DNA of 64,000 nt, from NCBI GenBank assembly GCA_902598525.1, contig CACKBZ010000001.1, positions 124,001-188,000 on the forward strand, read 5' to 3'. The notes under the pieces were generated by a model that saw only the letters and a program-made list of their open reading frames with translations, made no database searches and was not told where the DNA came from. Origin of the DNA: an uncultured Bacteroidota bacterium. Lineage in GTDB: Bacteria; Bacteroidota; Bacteroidia; Flavobacteriales; Flavobacteriaceae. Each line of letters starts with the position of its first letter. The first letter of the stretch is position 1. A program made the translations under genes and the position numbers. Positions 1,429 through 61,084 of the stretch are shown piece by piece.

Positions 1429-1510
1429 TACATAAAGAATAACCTATTTTTTGTCCATCTTAATTAATTGTAAATCAGGATAATAAAGGAAAAAAAAATA
1501 ATTTATTAAC

Positions 1511-1540
1511 AAAGTGGTAAAAAGTGGTAAAAAGTGGTAA
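1511..1540 (+). promoter_or_regulatory. MraZ operator: three perfect 10-bp direct repeats
   Basis: Three identical, head-to-tail copies of AAAGTGGTAA occupy 1511-1540, one DNA helical turn apart, 34 bp before the mraZ start. Known MraZ sites are short G-rich repeats with about 10-bp period upstream of the dcw operon: TGGGN boxes in enterobacteria and AAAGTG[T/G]N3 boxes in mollicutes. The repeats here fit the second form exactly. They end 8 bp before a -7 element at 1549-1556, so they cover the -33 region. A bound MraZ oligomer would be expected to block or modulate its own promoter. Confidence 0.85.
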
Positions 1541-1548
1541 AATAATTT

Positions 1549-1556
1549 TATATTTG
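1549..1556 (+). promoter_or_regulatory. -7 promoter element of the mraZ/dcw operon
   Basis: TATATTTG matches TAnnTTTG exactly and lies 17 bases before the mraZ ATG, predicting a short leader of roughly 10 nt. The -33 position falls inside the MraZ repeats and has no TTTG, which suits a regulated promoter. This is inferred from motif and position only. Confidence 0.6.
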
Positions 1557-1573
1557 AGTAAATCAACCAATTA

Positions 1574-2029
1574 ATGCAACACTTTGTTGGAACATTTGAA
1601 TGTAAAGCAGATGATAAAGGAAGAATAATGCTTCCTATGTCACTTAAAAAACAGTTGTCTGATAAACTTAAAAATGGTTTTGTAATAAAGAGAGCTGTAT
1701 TTAATCAGTGCTTAGAACTCTATCCTATTAAAGAATGGGATAGCTTAATGGAAAGAATAAATAACCTTAACAGGTTTAATAAGAAAAATATAGATTTTAT
1801 TCGAAGATTTACAGCTGGTGTTAGACAGATTGATATAGATATTTCTGGAAGAATTTTAATTCCAAAGGATTTAATAAATCATGCAAAAATTAAAAAAGAA
1901 GTAGTTGTATCCTCGGCAGTAAATATTCTTGAAATATGGGATAAAACATATTATGAAAATGCTATTGATGATGCAAAGTTTGATTTTGGAAATTTAGCTG
2001 AAGAAGTAATGGGGGATAAAGATGAGTAA
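1574..2029 (+). CDS. mraZ: Transcriptional regulator MraZ
   Basis: 151-residue DNA-binding regulator that heads the division and cell wall (dcw) cluster. It has two tandem SpoVT/AbrB-like half-domains, roughly residues 7-55 (with the motif CKADDKGRIMLP) and 80-125 (with DISGRILIP). Proteins of this family form ring-like oligomers that bind direct repeats upstream of their own gene. Three perfect repeats stand 34 bp upstream, so autoregulation is very likely. The stop overlaps the rsmH start by 8 bp. Length and motif order are normal for the family. Confidence 0.97.
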   Translation: MQHFVGTFECKADDKGRIMLPMSLKKQLSDKLKNGFVIKRAVFNQCLELYPIKEWDSLMERINNLNRFNKKNIDFIRRFTAGVRQIDIDISGRILIPKDLINHAKIKKEVVVSSAVNILEIWDKTYYENAIDDAKFDFGNLAEEVMGDKDE

Positions 2030-2924
2030 ATCATATCATATTCCGGTTTTATTGAAAGAGTCTATCAAAGGACTAAATATTATACCTGATGGTGTTTATG
2101 TTGATGCAACTTTTGGTGGTGGAGGACATACTAAAGAGATTTTAAACCACCTTAACTCATCTGGTAAGGTTATAGCATTTGATCAAGATGCTGATTCAAT
2201 AGAAAATCAAATCGATGATAAACGTCTAAAGCTCATAAAATCAAACTTCAAATACTTAACTAACCACCTTAATTATCTACAAATTAATAAAATAGATGGC
2301 CTTCTTGCGGATTTTGGAATTTCATCATATCAAATTGATACTGAAATAAGAGGATTTTCTATAAGATTTGACTCAGAACTTGATATGAGAATGAATAAGG
2401 ATCAAAAAAAGGAAGCAAAACAAATATTAAATAATTATAGTAGTGATGACTTAAATTATATATTCAAAAATTTTGGTGAGCTTAATAATTATAAAAAAGT
2501 TACTCAAACAATAATCAGTCATAGGTCAAAGCAAAAAATTATTACAACTGGGGATCTAATAAATATATTAAAGCCAATATCTCCTCCCAAAAATAATAAC
2601 AAGTTTTTATCCAAAATTTTTCAAGCTATAAGAATTGAAGTTAACGATGAACTTTCTGTAATAAAAAAATTACTTGAGGCTTCATCACAATACTTAAACA
2701 AAGGAGGAAGGCTTGTTTGTATTTCATATCATTCTCTAGAAGATAGACTAGTAAAAAGATATATTCAAAATGGAAGTTTTAATCAACAAGTAGAAAGTGA
2801 TATATATGGAAATAAAAACACTTATTTCAGGAAGATAGGTAAAATAGTTACCCCATCTGAATATGAATTAAATAAAAATAAAAGATCAAGAAGTGCTAAG
2901 CTCAGAATTGCTGAAAAAATATGA
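2022..2924 (+). CDS. rsmH: 16S rRNA (cytosine(1402)-N(4))-methyltransferase RsmH
   Basis: 300-residue SAM-dependent methyltransferase (MraW family) that modifies C1402 in the decoding centre of 16S rRNA. The SAM-binding motif VDATFGGGGHTKEIL is near residues 27-41, and the family signatures DGLLADFGISSYQ and ISYHSLEDRLVKRY are present. Length is normal. It overlaps mraZ by 8 bp and ftsL by 4 bp, so it is translationally tied to both. The second position in dcw is conserved across bacteria. Confidence 0.97.
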   Translation: MSKSYHIPVLLKESIKGLNIIPDGVYVDATFGGGGHTKEILNHLNSSGKVIAFDQDADSIENQIDDKRLKLIKSNFKYLTNHLNYLQINKIDGLLADFGISSYQIDTEIRGFSIRFDSELDMRMNKDQKKEAKQILNNYSSDDLNYIFKNFGELNNYKKVTQTIISHRSKQKIITTGDLINILKPISPPKNNNKFLSKIFQAIRIEVNDELSVIKKLLEASSQYLNKGGRLVCISYHSLEDRLVKRYIQNGSFNQQVESDIYGNKNTYFRKIGKIVTPSEYELNKNKRSRSAKLRIAEKI

Positions 2925-3229
2925 AAAATTTTCTATCGTTTATAAATATTGATTTCCTATCAGGTAAAGACTCCAGAAAAAATTGGAAAATGTTAATGTT
3001 TATTTCAGTTTTAATTATGATAACTATTTATAGTAGTCACAGTGCTGATCAAAAGGTCTTTAAAATATCTGAGTTAAGTAAAGAAGTAAATAACTTAAAC
3101 AACGTATCAGTGTCAACTAAAATTGACTTAATGAATGTAAAAATGGAGTCCAAGGTAACTTCTAAATTAAATAGTCAAGATTTGTATCCTTCTAACAACC
3201 CACCAGTAAAAATTATAATAATAGACTAA
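2921..3229 (+). CDS. ftsL: FtsL-like cell division membrane protein
   Basis: 102-residue single-pass protein. It has a short cytoplasmic part (1-21), one transmembrane helix (about 22-38) and a periplasmic part that looks helical or coiled-coil. This is the FtsL topology expected of a bridge in the FtsQ-FtsL-FtsB divisome subcomplex. Sequence conservation in FtsL is low, so the call depends mainly on topology, size and position between rsmH and ftsI. It overlaps rsmH by 4 bp and ends one base before ftsI. No FtsB candidate is next to it. Confidence 0.8.
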   Translation: MKNFLSFINIDFLSGKDSRKNWKMLMFISVLIMITIYSSHSADQKVFKISELSKEVNNLNNVSVSTKIDLMNVKMESKVTSKLNSQDLYPSNNPPVKIIIID

Positions 3230-3230
3230 T

Positions 3231-5015
3231 ATGAAAAAATCTGATAAAAGAATTGTTAACAGAATGAACATAGTGTTCTTCTTAATTCTTTTGTTTTCTT
3301 TTTTTGTTATTGGAAAGATATTCTACATTCAAAATACTCATGAGCAAGATCCCTCAGTATTAATTGAAACTATTAAAAATGTTGAAGTAGAGTCATCAAG
3401 GGGAAATATATATTCTGAAAATGGCGATTTAATAGTATCAACTGTTACCAGGTACGAGTTGAGATGGGACTCAAAAATAGCAAGTCAAAATCTTTATAAT
3501 TCATCTATAGATGACTTGTCAATTAATTTATCAAATTTTTTCAATAAAGAAAAAAACTATTTTAAAGATTATCTAAATAAGGCTAGAGTCAACAATAATA
3601 GATATTTATTAATTGGAAGAGACCTCTCCATTAAAGATGTGAATCTTATTAAATCTTTTCCAATTTTTAATCAAGGTTTATATAAAGGAGGTTTAATTAT
3701 TAAAGAGAATCATTCTAGACAAAGTCATCTAGGTAAAGTAGCTGAAAGAACAATTGGATACGAAAAAGTTGATAAATCTGGAAATTACATTAGAGTTGGT
3801 TTAGAAGGAGCATACTCTGAGTTTTTATCTGGTAAAACTGGATTAAGACTAATGCAAAAAATTGCTGATGGACAGTGGAAGCCAATGACTTCTTATTATG
3901 AAAGGGATCCAGTTCCTGGTTACGATATTCATACAACTATAGATACTGAAATACAGGATATTGTTCACCATGAACTGCTATTTCAGTTAGAAAATTTTGA
4001 GGCTGATCATGGAACAATGATTGTAATGGAAACTAAAACAGGTAAAATTAAAGCTATATCTAATCTTGGAGTAAACCAAGATGGTAAATATTATGAAAGA
4101 TTAAATTATGCTGTTGGTGAAAGTCATGAGCCAGGATCTACATTTAAAGTAATGACTATGATTGCTGCTTTAGAGGACGGATTAATAAAACCTACTGATT
4201 CAGTTGATACAGAGAATGGAATCTTAAAATTTTATAACAAATATGAAGTAAAAGATTCAAATCGAAGTGGTTATGGGAAGATTACAGCTGCAAAAGCATT
4301 TGAAGTATCATCTAACACTGGAATGGTAAAACTAATTTATGATAATTATAAAGATAATCCTGAAAGGATTGTTGATAGACTTATTAATATGAAAATTGAT
4401 AGAAAAATTGGAGTGGATATTCAAGGTGAAGGTGAACCAAAGATCCCACATCCATCAGATGAGACCTGGAACGGAATATCTCTTCCATGGATGGCTTTTG
4501 GTTATGGTGTTAGTTTAACACCGTTGCAACAACTTACTTTCTATAATGCCGTAGCTAATAATGGAGAAATGGTTAAACCAAGTTTCATAAATAGTATCGG
4601 ATCAATTGGAGAAAAACCAATTTTTCAAATAGATAGAGAAATTATAATGCCGTCAATTTCTTCAAAGCAGACATTGAGCTCAGTTAAGAAAATGTTGCTA
4701 AATGTAGTTGAAAAACCATGGGGAACAGCAAATAATATTTATGATGAAAAACTTAAAATTGCAGGTAAAACAGGAACAGCTCAAGTTGATTATACTTCAG
4801 AGGAAACACAGTATGTATCTAGCTTTGTTGGTTATTTTCCAGCAGATGAACCTATTTATTCATCAATCGTTGTAATTCATAAACCAAATAAATCCAAAGG
4901 CTATTATGGTGGAACAGTAGCGGCTCCCGTATTTAAAAAAGTGGCTAAAAAAATTATGAATAATATTCCAACAGAAATTGAGATTAACATTAACAAACTT
5001 GCTGAAGTATTTTGA
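3231..5015 (+). CDS. ftsI: Septal peptidoglycan transpeptidase FtsI (PBP3)
   Basis: 594-residue class B penicillin-binding protein that cross-links septal peptidoglycan in the periplasm with FtsW. It has an N-terminal membrane anchor (about 12-33), a dimerisation/pedestal domain (about 50-220) and a transpeptidase domain with S303-T-F-K306 (nucleophile Ser303), S360-S-N362 and K513-T-G515. The protein stops about 80 residues after KTG. Many flavobacterial homologues carry a C-terminal PASTA domain, and none is visible here. The gene is one base after ftsL and its TGA overlaps the TTG start of murE. Confidence 0.96.
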   Translation: MKKSDKRIVNRMNIVFFLILLFSFFVIGKIFYIQNTHEQDPSVLIETIKNVEVESSRGNIYSENGDLIVSTVTRYELRWDSKIASQNLYNSSIDDLSINLSNFFNKEKNYFKDYLNKARVNNNRYLLIGRDLSIKDVNLIKSFPIFNQGLYKGGLIIKENHSRQSHLGKVAERTIGYEKVDKSGNYIRVGLEGAYSEFLSGKTGLRLMQKIADGQWKPMTSYYERDPVPGYDIHTTIDTEIQDIVHHELLFQLENFEADHGTMIVMETKTGKIKAISNLGVNQDGKYYERLNYAVGESHEPGSTFKVMTMIAALEDGLIKPTDSVDTENGILKFYNKYEVKDSNRSGYGKITAAKAFEVSSNTGMVKLIYDNYKDNPERIVDRLINMKIDRKIGVDIQGEGEPKIPHPSDETWNGISLPWMAFGYGVSLTPLQQLTFYNAVANNGEMVKPSFINSIGSIGEKPIFQIDREIIMPSISSKQTLSSVKKMLLNVVEKPWGTANNIYDEKLKIAGKTGTAQVDYTSEETQYVSSFVGYFPADEPIYSSIVVIHKPNKSKGYYGGTVAAPVFKKVAKKIMNNIPTEIEININKLAEVF

Positions 5016-54678: not shown

Positions 54679-56010
54679 TTATTGAGAGTTAGAATATTTA
54701 TTTGAGTATCTCCTCCAAAGTCTGGTTTGGTGCGTTTCTAAACTTATATTTCTTCCTGAGATAAATGCATGAGAAACATTATTAGATACTATATCTAATG
54801 CATCTCCCTTTGATATAAACAAAGTAGCACTCTTACCAATTTCAATTGAACCAAATTCGTTATCTATTTCAAGTATCTTAGCAGGATTAAGAGTTATTAA
54901 ACTTAGAGCTGTCTCTTTATCAATCCCATAACTTGAAAAACTTCCGGCATAAAAAGGAAGATTTCTTATTGATACTCTTGATTGAGGAGCCCCTGACGGG
55001 TCTATACTTACTAGTATTCCTTTATCTAACATATGTTTTGCTAATAAGAAAGTATCATCGGGATCTGAATCAATTGATTGAGGGAATCTATATGGTTGCT
55101 TGACAATTACTGGGATATTATTCGCTTTTATAAAATCTAACTGATTTCTTGACTCTGATGCACCGACAATGACTATTTTCGCAATTCCAAATTTTTTTAA
55201 AAAAGTAACTCCATCAACAATTTCTTTTTCATCATCTGCATACAAATAGACCGTTGACTCACCATTAATTATACTTTTCATCGCTTTACTCTTTATATTC
55301 ATTGACTTGTTGACGTTCATATTTGCTTTCGACTTTTCAAAAAAATCTTTTAGACCTTTAACTTGACTGGAATAATTATTATTTACTTTAAGTCCTCTAT
55401 CCTCGTCTAGCCACCATCTACCATACGTATATGGACTTGGCCAATTAATATGTATACCCTGATCATATTTAACAGTTGCATCCTCCCAATTCCATGCATC
55501 AAGCTGAACAACAGAAGAACTTCCAGAAATGACACCACCATTTGGTGCAATTTGTGCAAGAAGTACCCCATTAGGTCTCATACTTTCTACAGCTTTTGAT
55601 TCGGCGTTGTATGCTATAATTGACCTAATTTCTGGTAAATAAGATCCTGACTCATCATCATCTACAGAAGCTTTAACTGCATCTATCTCAACTAACCCTA
55701 GATTAGTATTAAGAGCAATGATACCAGGATAAATGTGATGATTGGTTGCGTCAATAATTGTATCATATTTTTCATTTTTAGAGTCCTGAAACGAATTAAG
55801 TTTATCATCAGACCAGGCAACATCTGTTGAAGTTATTAAATCAATTTTTCCATTTGTGAATCCTATTAGACTATTATTTATTAATTCACCATTACCAACA
55901 TGAGTTGTTCCTCCATAAATTAAAACTGATTTATCTTGAGCTGGAGCAGGAGTCTGTTGAGAAAATAAAAGATTTAAAAAGATAATATTTATTAAAATAA
56001 TTTTTTTCAT
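54679..56010 (-). CDS. Secreted amidohydrolase-family protein with degenerate metal site
   Basis: 443-residue exported protein. I start it at the ATG at 56008-56010, which gives the signal peptide MKKIILINIIFLNLLFSQ; a GTG eight codons earlier would put extra residues ahead of it. The composite amidohydrolase fold is visible (YPGIIALNTNLG, then ALSLITLNPAKILEIDNEFGSIEIGKSATLF), but the DxHxH metal motif is replaced by IALNTNLG (about 98-105), so hydrolysis is doubtful. It follows the larger amidohydrolase gene by 4 bp, suggesting a subunit or modulatory partner. Confidence 0.82.
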   Translation of the reverse strand: MKKIILINIIFLNLLFSQQTPAPAQDKSVLIYGGTTHVGNGELINNSLIGFTNGKIDLITSTDVAWSDDKLNSFQDSKNEKYDTIIDATNHHIYPGIIALNTNLGLVEIDAVKASVDDDESGSYLPEIRSIIAYNAESKAVESMRPNGVLLAQIAPNGGVISGSSSVVQLDAWNWEDATVKYDQGIHINWPSPYTYGRWWLDEDRGLKVNNNYSSQVKGLKDFFEKSKANMNVNKSMNIKSKAMKSIINGESTVYLYADDEKEIVDGVTFLKKFGIAKIVIVGASESRNQLDFIKANNIPVIVKQPYRFPQSIDSDPDDTFLLAKHMLDKGILVSIDPSGAPQSRVSIRNLPFYAGSFSSYGIDKETALSLITLNPAKILEIDNEFGSIEIGKSATLFISKGDALDIVSNNVSHAFISGRNISLETHQTRLWRRYSNKYSNSQ

Positions 56011-56014
56011 GACT

Positions 56015-59005
56015 TTAAAATTCAGTGTATTCACAGGTTATCTCTATTTGAGGCATAGGGTTTGGAAACATAAGACTTGCACCAGGTAAATTTTGTCCCA
56101 GCATTTGCTGAATTAATTTATTTTTTTCTTCCTTAATGTCGTTTAATTTCTCCTTGTGCTGATACTTATCAAAATACAGAGCGCCTTCAATATATGTCTG
56201 TTCTGTTTGTGTGTAAAGAGACATGGGATGACCACTCCACAAAACAATATCCGCATCCTTTCCAACTTTAAGACTTCCAACTTGATCGTCTAGTCGAAGG
56301 AGTTTAGCTGGATTTAATGTCACAAACTTCCATGCTTCTTCTTCAGATACATTACCGTATTTTACTGCCTTTGCTGCTTCTAGATTCAACCTTCTGGAAA
56401 GTTCTGAATTATCTGAATTTAAGGCAACTGTAACTCCAGCATTATGCATTATAGATGCATTATATGGGATTGCATCATTTACTTCAAATTTGTAGCCCCA
56501 CCAATCAGAAAACGTTGATCCACCAACACCATGCTCTGCCATCTTATCTGCAACTTTATATCCCTCTAAAATATGTGTGAATATGTCTATTTTAAAGCCA
56601 AACCTTTCAGCAACTTTCATTAACATATTAATTTCACTTTGAACATACGAATGACTTGAAATAAATCTATCTCCTCTTAAAATCTCCCATAAAGTTTCAA
56701 GTTCCTCGTCAAATCTCGGTTTCGGAGTAGATGCTTTTTTTCTTTTACTAAGTGAATTATAATTTGTCCAGTTCTCAGCATATTCTTTAGCTCTATCAAA
56801 ATGATCAATAAATACCTGTTCAACTCCCATCCTTGTTTGTGGGAATCTTGAACCTCCCCAATTAGACTGTTTAACATTTTCACCTAATGCAAACTTTATA
56901 AATGGAGTAGCATTTTTAAAAAACATATCCTCAATTTCAGACCCCCATTTTAATTTGATAATTGCAGATTGTCCCCCTATTGGATTAGCAGAACCGTGAA
57001 GAATTTGAACAGTTGTTACACCACCACCTAAATTTCTATAAATATTAATATCATCTGGATTTATAACATCCATAATAGAGACCTCTGCAGATGAATTGTG
57101 ACCTCCCTCATTTATACTTGATGCAGCCATATGTGAGTGTTCATCAATTATTCCCGATGTTATATGTTTATTTGTTGCATCAATAATTTTGAAATTATCT
57201 GGAGTCTCAAGATTCTTTCCTATGGCAATAATTTTTCCATTATCAATTATTATATCTGAATTCGAAATGATCCCATCATTTTCGTTGGTCCAAAGAGTTG
57301 CATTTTTAAAGTGAATGGATTGACTTGAAGGAATTGAGCTTAGTCCAAAGCCAACATTAGGGTATGTTACTTCTGATATTGATGGACTATTAGATTCAGA
57401 TTTTGATGTCTTCTTTGACTTTTTGGTCTCAGTTAACTCTTTTTTTGAGATATTAAATGAAAAATTATTATTATTAAAATCAGTTCCAGTACCTTCTATA
57501 TTATTCGACGAATTTATTTTTAGTGAAATTTGAGCAAAAGACTGTCTTCCGTCTATACTATCAAATAGAGTAATACTCAACCAGTCATCTACAATAGAAG
57601 TCTTTGATTTTATGTTTAAAGAGTCTTTTGTAATAATTGATGAGGGTTTAGAAAGGCTATTAGTAATTTTTAGATTGTACGAATTATTATTTAATTCAAT
57701 GGAATAATCTCCATCAATATTAGTTTTATCTGTATTCTTAATAACGTGTCTTTCTCCTTTGACCCAGTTTTCAATAATCTCAGTTTCTTCATCAAAAATC
57801 GGCCCAGATGTGATTAAAAAGTTCGCTAAGTAATTATTCTCTAATTTACCTATCTTTCCCTCTAAACCAATTGAAGTAGCAGGTATAATAGTTAAAGCAT
57901 CTAATGCAGTTTTTTCACTTAAACCGTTTTTTATAGCTTTTCTAATGTTTTTCAAGAAGTCTCTTTTATTTTTTAAGTCAGTAGAAGTAATTGAAAAAAC
58001 TATACCGTTTCTTTCTAATATACCAAGATTAGTTGGTGCTTGATTCCAATATCTGAGTTGATTTATAGTTAATTTGTCGTTAAGCTGGGCGTTAGATACA
58101 TCAAAGGCATTTGGAAAGTTTACTGGGATTATAAGTTTATTGTTGAATTTCTTTAACTCCCTTACATTCTCATATTCTTTTCCTGAGCCTTTAATAACAA
58201 AGTCAAGATTAAGCTCTGCTGAAATTTTTGCAGCTCTGTAAACGTTTAGTTTATCATCTGCGTCAAAGAGTTTTGGTATATCTCTATTTTTAATAACTGA
58301 CTCTAAAGCTAGATCCTTAGTTTTTGACAAACCTTGAGAATACCAATCTGCATCATAGTAAAGTTGCCTTATTAATGCCATAGCACCCATAGTAGAACTA
58401 GGGTAGGACTGATTTGATGTTTGACTTCTTGAAAACGAGAAGTGTTCAGCAGTTTTCTCTGAAATAATTCTAAATGATTCATCTTGATTGTCAATCAATC
58501 CTAAAGTAAAACTTGTTCCTCTGTGAACTCCATCATCTCGATGAGAATTTACAACACCAAAACCAATATTCCTTAGTGCTTTTGCATCCTTTTGATTGTA
58601 ACTATAATCTTTCATACTATTGTAGTCACTTAAAATATGATCATTCCAATAATATCCCTTTCTAGTTGGCTCATATTGAGAGCTTCTACCATAAGATCTC
58701 CTTTCTGGTTTTTTTACACTAAATGAAGAATGAATTTCAATAAACGACGGATATATGTAGTTCCCATTTAAGTCTTTAACTATACTATTTTCTGGGATTA
58801 CAATATCCTTACCAATTTGTACAATTTTTCCATCTCTCTCAATTAAAGTTGCATTTTTTATTATTGAGTTATTTGAATAAATGTTTGCATTTACAAAAAC
58901 ATTAAACTCATAATCTTGAGTTTTTACTCCATCATTGACGATAAAGTAATCTTGACTATATAATCCAAATGACAGAAAGAATGAAAATAAAAAGATTCTT
59001 TTCAT
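56015..59005 (-). CDS. Large secreted amidohydrolase-family protein, tandem domains
   Basis: 996-residue exported protein with a signal peptide (about 1-17). An N-terminal amidohydrolase-like half (about 30-430) has lost the metal motif (IEIHSS at 89-94). A beta-rich spacer with a low-complexity Lys/Ser segment (about 430-555) is followed by a complete amidohydrolase domain: DEHSH (621-625), His785, His811 and Asp865 as likely metal ligands and catalytic acid, then FVTLNPAKLLRLDDQVGSLKVGKDADIVLW. Imidazolonepropionase/dipeptidase-like activity is possible but the substrate is unknown. A TATATTAG motif precedes it. Confidence 0.85.
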   Translation of the reverse strand: MKRIFLFSFFLSFGLYSQDYFIVNDGVKTQDYEFNVFVNANIYSNNSIIKNATLIERDGKIVQIGKDIVIPENSIVKDLNGNYIYPSFIEIHSSFSVKKPERRSYGRSSQYEPTRKGYYWNDHILSDYNSMKDYSYNQKDAKALRNIGFGVVNSHRDDGVHRGTSFTLGLIDNQDESFRIISEKTAEHFSFSRSQTSNQSYPSSTMGAMALIRQLYYDADWYSQGLSKTKDLALESVIKNRDIPKLFDADDKLNVYRAAKISAELNLDFVIKGSGKEYENVRELKKFNNKLIIPVNFPNAFDVSNAQLNDKLTINQLRYWNQAPTNLGILERNGIVFSITSTDLKNKRDFLKNIRKAIKNGLSEKTALDALTIIPATSIGLEGKIGKLENNYLANFLITSGPIFDEETEIIENWVKGERHVIKNTDKTNIDGDYSIELNNNSYNLKITNSLSKPSSIITKDSLNIKSKTSIVDDWLSITLFDSIDGRQSFAQISLKINSSNNIEGTGTDFNNNNFSFNISKKELTETKKSKKTSKSESNSPSISEVTYPNVGFGLSSIPSSQSIHFKNATLWTNENDGIISNSDIIIDNGKIIAIGKNLETPDNFKIIDATNKHITSGIIDEHSHMAASSINEGGHNSSAEVSIMDVINPDDINIYRNLGGGVTTVQILHGSANPIGGQSAIIKLKWGSEIEDMFFKNATPFIKFALGENVKQSNWGGSRFPQTRMGVEQVFIDHFDRAKEYAENWTNYNSLSKRKKASTPKPRFDEELETLWEILRGDRFISSHSYVQSEINMLMKVAERFGFKIDIFTHILEGYKVADKMAEHGVGGSTFSDWWGYKFEVNDAIPYNASIMHNAGVTVALNSDNSELSRRLNLEAAKAVKYGNVSEEEAWKFVTLNPAKLLRLDDQVGSLKVGKDADIVLWSGHPMSLYTQTEQTYIEGALYFDKYQHKEKLNDIKEEKNKLIQQMLGQNLPGASLMFPNPMPQIEITCEYTEF

Positions 59006-59057: not shown

Positions 59058-60056
59058 TCAATTAAAATAATCGTATGGCACTTTCCTCTGATAATAATCA
59101 ATTATGTAATTGGAAACTTTATTATAAGATAAAATCCCATCCTCTTGTTTATTCGATTTCAGGTAAAAGTCATATAAATAGTTAGCTATTCGGTCAAAAA
59201 AATTATTATAATATTTATTCCAGAATTCTGAATTATTTCTTATGTCAGATTTAACCTTTGGGTCTAGTCTTGAGGTGTAATCCTCAAGTTTTTCGTAATG
59301 ATTTTTACTTACTTCGTTTAGTAGATTTAAAAGAGCATTAAAATAGCCAGAATATCTAACGTTTGCATTATCACTCTCTATCGATTTAACAAACCCATAA
59401 AAGCTTGCTTCTGCTTCATCTGCATATCCCAATTGATGAGCTTGTTCATGAAAAATAACTAATGGTAAATCAATTTTTGGAATATCACCATTAATTACTG
59501 ATTCTGATGTAAATGGGATAAAGTGCCCAGAAACTGTCTGATAAAGAAGTATACTGGGTATGATTGACTGTTTTGTATTAAAACTAGTTGAGTTAGTTAG
59601 TTCAAAAAAGTTTAAGTCATTAAAATCTTCAATTATTAGTACTTCTTCGTTAATCCTTGAAATAATATTATCCAAAGTTTTATCTAGATCCTCAAACTTG
59701 TAATCATCCTTAATGTTTAATTTTTTAGAGATAGATGTTCTAAAATAATTTAATCCCCAAAAAGAATAAAAAATAAAGTAAACAATTGAAATAAATGCTA
59801 ATAAGTTAATTGAATCATTTAGTTTAAATGAAAATACTCTGTAAGTAAGATAAATAAGTAAAATTAAGGCAATTAGATATAAAACCTCACCAACGGGAAT
59901 ATCAATATTAGAATATAAAAAAGAATTAATTCTAAGTATAAATTTATATAGGTAGCCAGAGTAATATTCATCTACTATTGATGGATTATTCTGAATATAA
60001 TTAACTAATAATATTTGGGGTATTAGAGCTAGAGCAAAAATACTTTTAACTTTCAT
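59058..60056 (-). CDS. DUF3810 membrane protein with HExxH zinc-peptidase-like motif
   Basis: 332-residue protein. It has hydrophobic segments near 6-20, 55-75 and 82-100, then an extracytoplasmic domain containing HEQAH (203-207) followed by GYADEAEASFYGF, in which Glu214 or Glu216 could be the third zinc ligand. The HExxH...E arrangement resembles gluzincin-type metallopeptidases. DUF3810 is a Bacteroidota and Firmicutes family without an assigned substrate. The gene abuts and overlaps the PPIase gene by one base, so both belong to one unit and may act on exported proteins. Confidence 0.85.
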   Translation of the reverse strand: MKVKSIFALALIPQILLVNYIQNNPSIVDEYYSGYLYKFILRINSFLYSNIDIPVGEVLYLIALILLIYLTYRVFSFKLNDSINLLAFISIVYFIFYSFWGLNYFRTSISKKLNIKDDYKFEDLDKTLDNIISRINEEVLIIEDFNDLNFFELTNSTSFNTKQSIIPSILLYQTVSGHFIPFTSESVINGDIPKIDLPLVIFHEQAHQLGYADEAEASFYGFVKSIESDNANVRYSGYFNALLNLLNEVSKNHYEKLEDYTSRLDPKVKSDIRNNSEFWNKYYNNFFDRIANYLYDFYLKSNKQEDGILSYNKVSNYIIDYYQRKVPYDYFN

Positions 60057-61084
60057 TAATTTATGTCGAGTAATTCAACTTCAAATATTAATGTCGCATT
60101 AGGGGGTATAACTCCATTCCCAGCACCAGTTGGTCCATAGCCTAGTTCACTAGGAATCACTAGTGTAGCTTTAGACCCCTTGTTTAGAAGCTGCATTGCT
60201 TCATCCCATCCTTTAATAACTTGACCTACACCACAAGTAAATTCAATAGGTTCTCCTCTGGTGAAAGATGAGTCAATTACTGATCCATCAATAAGACTTA
60301 AGGAGTAATGAACAGATAAGACATCATTTATTTTTGCATTAGAGCCACTTCCTTTTTTTGAAATTTTATATTTTAAACCACTTTCAGTTTCAATCATTCC
60401 TTTTGTTATATCCTTTAAAAGGTTAGCTTCTTGTTCAGCCTTTAAAATATCTGCCTGACTTTTATTTGTTATGTAATCCTCAAAAATTTTAGGTGCATCA
60501 AAATTTTCTGCGTCTTTTCCAATTCTGATTATTTTTACACTTTTGATTAGATCATCTTGGGCGATCTTGTCAACCACCTCTAGACCAGTACTATCTAATG
60601 CAGTACTAACTTTTCCAAAAACAGAATGTTTACCGTCAAGCCATGGAGTTTCAACATGAGTTATAAAAAATTGGCTTCCATTTGTACCTGGTCCAGCATT
60701 AGCCATTGATAAAATCCCTGGTCCAGTATGTTTAAGCTCGTCACTAAATTCATCATCGAACTGAAATCCTGGTCCTCCAGAGCCTGTTCCAGTTGGATCT
60801 CCACCCTGAATCATAAAATTCTCAATAACTCGATGAAATTTTAAACCATCATAATATGGTTTGCCTGAGTATTCTTCTGCAGCTGCAGGATGATTTCCTT
60901 CAGATAATGCAACAAAATTTGATACTGTTAAAGGTGTCTTTTTGTAGAATAGTTCCAATAGTATGTCACCTTTAGAGGTTTCCATATTTGCATATATTCC
61001 TTCATTTAGTTCAGAGTAATCGTTCATATTACAAGAGTTTAGTGTTTGAATTAGTGTTATGAATATTATAATTTTTTTAATCAT
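60056..61084 (-). CDS. Cyclophilin-FKBP fusion peptidylprolyl isomerase lipoprotein
   Basis: 342-residue lipoprotein with lipobox TLNSC (Cys18). The first half (about 30-200) is a cyclophilin: [25 protein letters not shown] and [25 protein letters not shown] with active-site residues. A short linker leads to an FKBP domain (about 235-342) with [19 protein letters not shown] and [28 protein letters not shown]. Two isomerase folds in one surface or periplasmic lipoprotein should assist folding of exported proteins. This fusion is known in Flavobacteria. It overlaps nrnA by 8 bp. Confidence 0.94.

Follow-up and report, generated by a model that had tools for sequence, protein, structure and literature searches.

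Why should a bacterium keep three related, apparently exported amidohydrolase barrels if two of them lack the residues with which such enzymes usually hold metal? The question is raised by two adjacent genes in a stretch of 64,000 nucleotides (hereafter the window; positions 124,001 to 188,000 of the forward strand of contig CACKBZ010000001.1, GenBank assembly GCA_902598525.1) from an uncultured Bacteroidota bacterium of the Flavobacteriaceae, whose 1.17-Mb assembly is 79% complete. The large gene encodes an N-terminal barrel (N) and a C-terminal barrel (C) in one chain; the small gene encodes a single barrel (S). We consider it probable that the two genes together specify an exported hetero-oligomeric amidohydrolase descended from a single enzyme of the type seen in Protein Data Bank (PDB) entry 3ooq, in which C does the chemical work and N and S serve to assemble or regulate it. 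The features on which the argument draws are listed here in window coordinates.

56015..59005, minus strand: large gene, 996 amino acids (aa), with a signal-like N-terminus, dead barrel N, a beta region and intact barrel C
57734..58918, minus strand: N domain, residues 30-424, a predicted amidohydrolase-like barrel without metal site (model and profile alignment)
58724..58741, minus strand: IEIHSS, residues 89-94, the place of the lost HxH in N
57362..57733, minus strand: linker region, residues 425-548, with eight predicted beta strands (432-521; model)
56051..57328, minus strand: C domain, residues 560-985, a predicted amidohydrolase barrel with the metal-site residues intact (sequence and model)
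57131..57145, minus strand: DEHSH, residues 621-625, HxH of the putative C metal site (D621, H623 and H625 in 171 of 171 C sequences)
56879..56881, minus strand: E709, proposed metal-binding glutamate of C (171 of 171)
56651..56653, minus strand: H785, metal ligand of C by sequence (171 of 171)
56573..56575, minus strand: H811, metal ligand of C by sequence (171 of 171)
56411..56413, minus strand: D865, catalytic or metal-binding aspartate of C by sequence (171 of 171)
54679..56010, minus strand: small gene, 443 aa, with a signal-like N-terminus and dead barrel S (model and metal-residue counts)
55696..55719, minus strand: IALNTNLG, residues 98-105, the place of the lost HxH in S

The small open reading frame was listed as 54679-56034, with a GTG start and 451 aa; its 443-aa reading starts at the ATG at 56010, so that the large gene's stop and this ATG are four bases apart on the same strand, the arrangement behind the suggestion that the two may be co-transcribed. 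Both proteins match the amidohydrolase profile PF01979 above its curated cut-off of 25 bits (80.1 bits for the large and 29.3 bits for the small protein). Both also begin with a hydrophobic, signal-like stretch by a lenient home-made rule, and the same rule, with duplicates included, finds signal-like N-termini in 196/198 N-containing, 188/192 S and 11/11 free C proteins of the sampled loci; all three barrels look exported. Two single proteins from Clostridia had no signal-like N-terminus by this lenient rule.

We placed the metal sites by barrel-profile alignments built from the sampled loci (C to N, E 1.6e-39; C to S, E 3.8e-45) and counted the residues over unique sequences, 171 of C, 172 of N and 165 of S, mostly from the window's order, with 39, 40 and 33 rows, respectively, coming from a deeper sample. 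Before counting we removed duplicates (24 N, 23 C, 24 S), rows with unknown residues (L137 for N, C and S; L017 and L092 for C and S; L209 for C) and a single N (L015) that was too short. All six of the six residues in C (H623, H625, E709, H785, H811 and D865) were present in 171/171 sequences. An earlier sequence-only reading had described a C-terminal domain with intact DEHSH, His785, His811 and Asp865, all of which we confirm; E709, which sits in FALGENVK, was absent from it and is the sixth likely ligand, a role that we presume from NagA-type enzymes. That reading had also pointed to IEIHSS in the N-terminal half and IALNTNLG in the 443-aa protein as degenerate sites; both are where it placed them, and the degeneracy is general, no more than two of the metal residues being matched in any of the 172 N and 165 S sequences. 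The ligand set of active amidohydrolases (HxH, Glu/Lys, His, His, Asp) is complete in C and incomplete in both N and S.

How much of the old site N and S retain can be read from the same columns. Zero, one and two matching residues were found in 110, 59 and 3 of the 172 N sequences and in 81, 79 and 5 of the 165 S sequences; a slack of ±2 columns raised the maximum to three in N (17/172) and left it at two in S. Because the E709 column is a gap in both alignments, the comparison effectively covers five sites in these two barrels. Random positions gave a mean of 0.23 and 0.22 matches (300 draws each) vs. the observed ~0.38 in N and ~0.54 in S, and this slight excess over background therefore suggests a small remnant of an old metal site. 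The remnant in S is mainly a His at the H785 position (79/165), where the window's own S has Tyr. The window's N has H92 at the first HxH position, in a column that is Tyr in 127/172 and His in only 19/172 sequences. In the H623 column Tyr predominates among N sequences and Asn among S sequences, the H811 column is Gly in 151/172 N and 149/165 S, and the H785 column in N is acidic (E or D) in 101/172. One deep N (L196, genome G518), whose motif was taken from an earlier domain cut with overlapping N and C ranges, still reads IDAHSHLG, i.e. HSH at the lost metal site; the loss of the N site may therefore have been stepwise, with this N a possible intermediate of the decay.

The sequences give few indications that metal ligands were regained elsewhere in N or S. 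No His column exceeded 77% among the sampled N domains, and the common His columns of S (37, at 93%, 92, 187, 307 and 427) include none that is invariant, though S could conceivably have regained some ligands. Counting H, C, D, E, K and R columns above 80% overall and above 70% in the deep rows, N has five (D90, R213, D218, R257 and E277), S eight and C more than 40; nearly invariant are R213, R257 and D218 in N and E108, D117, E120, R145 and R349 in S. These alignments strongly support C as the barrel likely to be catalytic, with N and S lacking the usual metal site.

The amidohydrolase fold was found in the models of C, S and N (single chains; mean predicted local distance difference test score, pLDDT, 83.5 for the large and 85.3 for the small protein). 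The C model aligned best with 3ooq_A (Z 44.3, root-mean-square deviation (rmsd) 2.1, 372 aligned residues; next entry Z 24.2) and the S model with 3ooq_F (Z 43.2, rmsd 2.5, 352 aligned; next entry Z 24.7), and the N model (30-423) aligned with imidazolonepropionase 2g3f (Z 21.4, rmsd 4.0, 291 aligned). Entry 3ooq was also the top PDB match by sequence for C (E 2.3e-55), for free N proteins (5.6e-39) and for free S proteins (6.3e-61), and was also best for the window's S; C and S are nearer to 3ooq than to any other solved amidohydrolase by both sequence and fold, and N by sequence profile only. Like C, this Thermotoga maritima amidohydrolase carries the same six metal residues in the alignment; unlike the window set, it is a single 396-aa chain with an intact site and with no N domain or beta region. 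Next best for C (Z ~24 and below) come enzymes sharing the barrel fold, namely isoaspartyl dipeptidase, Xaa-Pro/Xaa-Arg dipeptidases, imidazolonepropionase and NagA. Curated cut-offs were missed for HutI (TIGR01224; 73 vs. 298 bits) and the Xaa-Pro dipeptidase (NF051886; 68.5 vs. 500 bits), and the score for NagA was far below its own (54 vs. 226 bits). The PDB search with C also returned weak matches to CRMP (dihydropyrimidinase-related) proteins, eukaryotic scaffold proteins of the hydantoinase group that have the amidohydrolase fold without a catalytic metal site and in this resemble N and S; we know of no active paralogue within the same chain in CRMP.

Conservation and model confidence were related differently in the three barrels. 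The most conserved blocks of C tended to be the least confidently modelled (Spearman -0.39, p 0.013; lowest-confidence blocks 711-720, 831-840, 631-640, 671-680 and 721-730), with a Spearman coefficient of +0.41 in N and 0.01 in S. The pattern in C is what would be expected if active-site loops became ordered only with metal or a partner, and we take it as a hint to that effect.

Across genomes the barrels occur in several arrangements. N and C were fused in 29 of the 40 deep loci, and N, C and S were three adjacent genes, in that order throughout, in the other 11 (L199-L208 and L210); S lay within the stretch in 33 and not in the other 7. In 9/11 of the three-gene loci the free N protein is 560-608 aa long and has extra residues past the barrel, L202 and L210 being the exceptions. 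Seven plasmid records had a C-type match, five of which were examined (H5 Nonomuraea and H6 Cytobacillus were left out): in Qipengyuania and Novosphingobium (Sphingomonadales) an intact C-type gene precedes an S-type gene that lacks the motif, Acetoanaerobium and Monoglobus (Clostridia) have one intact gene in the stretch, and a Hymenobacter plasmid copy (L212) has the set in broken pieces and was left out of the tree. A more distant two-gene version, judged by profile score and motif and not by full mapping, is present in 15 genomes of the phylum (L237-L253); its S-like gene adjoins the intact gene in 14/15 (e.g. reading PGLIDAHSVVGL), and in G515 the contig ends there. A series of one gene, two genes, three genes and a fused form emerges from these computations. 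Genome G608 (L252) carries both a two-gene and a three-gene set. An apparent 2523-aa fusion in L209 (genome G328) was rejected, a run of unknown bases having been read through.

A quick, unrooted tree of 71 rows (supports from the Shimodaira-Hasegawa-like approximate likelihood ratio test, SH-aLRT) separated each of N, C and S from the remaining rows by a branch (100, 99 and 98). The metal-bearing rows (C, C2 and singles) also stood jointly on one side of a branch (97), so that the dead line may be of single origin. Common ancestry of N, C and S is strongly supported by sequence comparison, from which the loss of the metal site also appears far older than the window genome.

The dead barrels are under purifying selection by the ratio of nonsynonymous to synonymous change (dN/dS). 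Estimates from six pairs of genus-mates, with synonymous changes near saturation in three pairs, were 0.06-0.17 for N, 0.07-0.12 for S, 0.05-0.08 for C and 0.12-0.26 for the linker; these low values therefore indicate that the dead barrels are being kept.

They are also kept together. S adjoined the large gene on the same strand in 48/48 loci including the window's own (in L014 and L016 the contig stops within S, and in L015 frame shifts break the large gene). In L015 itself (genome G018; reverse complement 1492-4491) the large gene goes out of frame and back within N and S is intact; these shifts may be assembly errors, because a nearby prolyl isomerase gene also changes frame. In 18 genomes of families in which S is not adjacent, S was nevertheless present in 18/18: in 15 it lay on a different contig, in two (G374 and G360) a long way off on the same one, and in one (G658) at a distance of 3.9 kb. 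A survey of 392 genomes of the phylum (large-protein profile A1 at E 1e-40; S profile A4 at E 1e-45) found the large protein in 219 and S in 202, all 202 lying within the 219, where ~113 would be expected if the two were independent; about half of the sampled phylum genomes (202/392) thus carry S plus a large-protein match. The 17 genomes with only the large-protein match comprise 15 with the distant two-gene variant, G328, whose locus contains unknown bases, and G608, in which S was missed by the first search and found later, so that the S count may be slightly low. Among 24 genus-mates, both genes were found in 14, neither in 10 and only one in 0; some of these absences would be gaps, since the genomes are 54-95% complete. 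In the window's order, the large protein was matched in 89/296 genomes at E 1e-60. Two loci under other titles, L093 (Candidatus Neomarinimicrobiota) and L162 (uncultured Kiloniella), are 58% and 50% identical to the window's, as close as flavobacterial copies, and are perhaps mislabelled or from mixed bins.

The sequence-only reading had proposed three related barrels of which one is likely catalytic, and shared ancestry, metal residues confined to C, selection and joint presence and absence all bear this out; its idea of pseudo-enzyme partners was a sound deduction on the same grounds. As relatives across the phylum keep the trio, the dead copies probably help to build or control C. The support for a hetero-oligomer is genetic: paralogy, joint presence, the N-C gene fusion and strong constraint.

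We reasoned that the ancestor would have been a single intact enzyme of the Thermotoga 3ooq type, whose gene was duplicated, one copy (C) keeping the metal centre and the other losing it and giving rise to S and N. C would hydrolyse its substrate with metal ions held by HxH, Glu709, His785, His811 and Asp865; N and S would stand in for neighbouring subunits of an ancestral homo-oligomer, would keep C in its active arrangement and perhaps gate or regulate it, each N-C-S set having one catalytic barrel. The window's lineage has N and C joined in a single chain, with S coming from the next gene. What we infer in this scheme is that the ancestor was a homo-oligomer, that a physical complex exists and that C depends on N and S, together with the metals and the chemistry. 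A more specific version, which we hold tentatively and put at somewhat less than an even chance, is that of an ancient exported three-barrel enzyme in which C is active only in assembly with two paralogues that lost their metal before the Bacteroidota diversified, with a two-gene form (one dead, one active barrel) in Sphingomonadales and other Bacteroidota, and with the ratio of dead to active barrels set by gene content and later by fusion.

A precedent for such a way of working is offered by Pseudomonas. The parts of PMC7053772 on which we draw describe an inactive dihydroorotase (pDHO) subunit without which aspartate transcarbamoylase (ATCase) is inactive, as well as a fungal domain homologous to pDHO that has lost its zinc ligands. 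Like N and S, pDHO is an inactive subunit of amidohydrolase fold, and it is needed by its partner enzyme and acts through assembly (PMC7053772); however, the working subunit there belongs to another family, the transcarbamylases, whereas here dead and working barrels are paralogues. The window set further differs from pDHO-ATCase in its signal-like N-termini and in having two dead barrels per working one. Joint presence is what we see; that N and S work as pDHO does would be an extension by analogy.

Several observations weigh against a hetero-oligomer of this kind, or limit what can be said for it. S stands apart from the N-C gene in families f37, f39, f42, f62 and f63, and since it is unlinked in several families, co-translation would not be needed there. 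Many genomes have no match (173/392 of the phylum, 207/296 of the order and 10/24 genus-mates, some of the latter incomplete), and the gene set is therefore dispensable. Neighbouring genes are not conserved and point to no substrate. The models are of single chains only, the physical complex being our inference from other evidence, and the confidence pattern in C has a simpler cause that could explain it, namely that the model was made without metal. Finally, the long branches of the dead copies could group falsely in the tree.

The alternatives must be weighed against the same evidence. The sequence-only reading had suggested that the dead barrels bind or present the substrate, e.g. a peptide or polymer, to C. 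All three barrels look exported, the nearly invariant positions of N (R213, R257, D218) and of S could form a binding site, and the beta region that follows N might be a ligand-binding element; however, the same conservation fits subunit contacts, and the S loop with E108, D117 and E120 (101-120) is the least confident part of the mature single-chain model. Nothing separates this suggestion from a structural or regulatory role, and we regard it as unlikely. We think it decidedly improbable that N and S are enzymes with another, metal-free chemistry, the operon encoding a short pathway: that they keep the barrel fold under strong selection, and that N so often has E or D at the H785 position (101/172), would suit such a role, but conserved polar columns are few (five in N and eight in S against more than 40 in C), no catalytic set is obvious among them, and a complex would account equally well or better for joint presence and the N-C fusion. 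Still less probable is it that N and S are not dead but bind metal through a different ligand set. The common His columns of S, the His at its H785 position in 79/165 sequences and the HSH of the L196 N would be the candidates, yet no His is invariant in N or S, and the column of H811 is given over to Gly in most sequences of both, as that of H623 is mostly to Tyr (N) or Asn (S). Ordinary decay, in which the dead barrels would be chance leftovers beside an active gene, can hardly account for the pattern, common as gene duplication followed by loss of an active site is, since the frames are open across the phylum, dN/dS is far below 1 and near that of C, unlinked S is kept in 18/18 genomes and the two genes are lost jointly.

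If the hetero-oligomeric complex is real, it would provide a clean series (one, two and three genes, and the fused form) for the passage from a single enzyme to a hetero-oligomer with dead subunits, and a warning that many predicted hydrolases are, alone, no hydrolases. Two annotated plasmid records label such genes 'amidohydrolase' or 'amidohydrolase family protein', although two of the three barrels lack the usual metal site. Dead amidohydrolase barrels are known, and among the open-access full texts searched we found no description of an exported set with two dead paralogues and one live one, or of the two-gene forms. The portion of PMC13081902 consulted concerns a metal-dependent bile salt hydrolase of Bilophila.

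As to the substrate, our guess, by analogy with distant structural relatives only, is an exported dipeptidase-like or N-acyl-amino-acid hydrolase activity. Gene context offered scattered leads towards peptides. The Qipengyuania pair (L213) has a POT peptide transporter immediately upstream, S in L199 is followed after 15 bp by an NlpC/P60 peptidase, L176 has an S66 carboxypeptidase as its neighbour, and in 37/123 clustered loci, and in no deep locus, an M20 dipeptidase lies on the opposite strand, two or three genes further upstream. A further context sample comprised 80 stretches of up to 20 kb (core match in 79, all but L280; 13 with the two-gene variant and 7 with S only). When the four lead proteins were searched in these 80 stretches, POT and M20 were found in 0, S66 in 1 and NlpC/P60 in 3, the last within 1 kb in one stretch, and the two near matches were in genomes already behind the leads (G658 and G563). 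As the leads did not recur, the peptide idea has only isolated loci or isolated families behind it, and we rejected gene context as a guide to the substrate. The largest similarity clusters of neighbours within 5 kb covered 14, 8, 6 and 6 stretches and comprised, by eye, a kinase-like group, ABC ATPases and dehydrogenases; one block common to L275, L288, L289 and L292 (family f18) contains, by eye, an M20-type hydrolase on the other strand. In L342 and L343, from two families, the unlinked S has a close neighbour, at 6 and 16 bp, that belongs to a cluster represented by the S9 peptidase of L300.

Two neighbours of the pair in the window deserve mention. Directly upstream of the large gene, at 59058-60056 on the minus strand, lies a DUF3810 protein (PF12725) with an HExxH motif (HEQAH, residue 203); DUF3810 relatives stand directly upstream in 48/123 clustered loci, and because HExxH is kept in 48/48 of them, this neighbour may be a membrane zinc peptidase. 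Also near the amidohydrolases, at 60056-61084 (minus strand), cyclophilin and FKBP domains are fused in one prolyl isomerase, and the Qipengyuania pair (L213) likewise has an FKBP gene after it.

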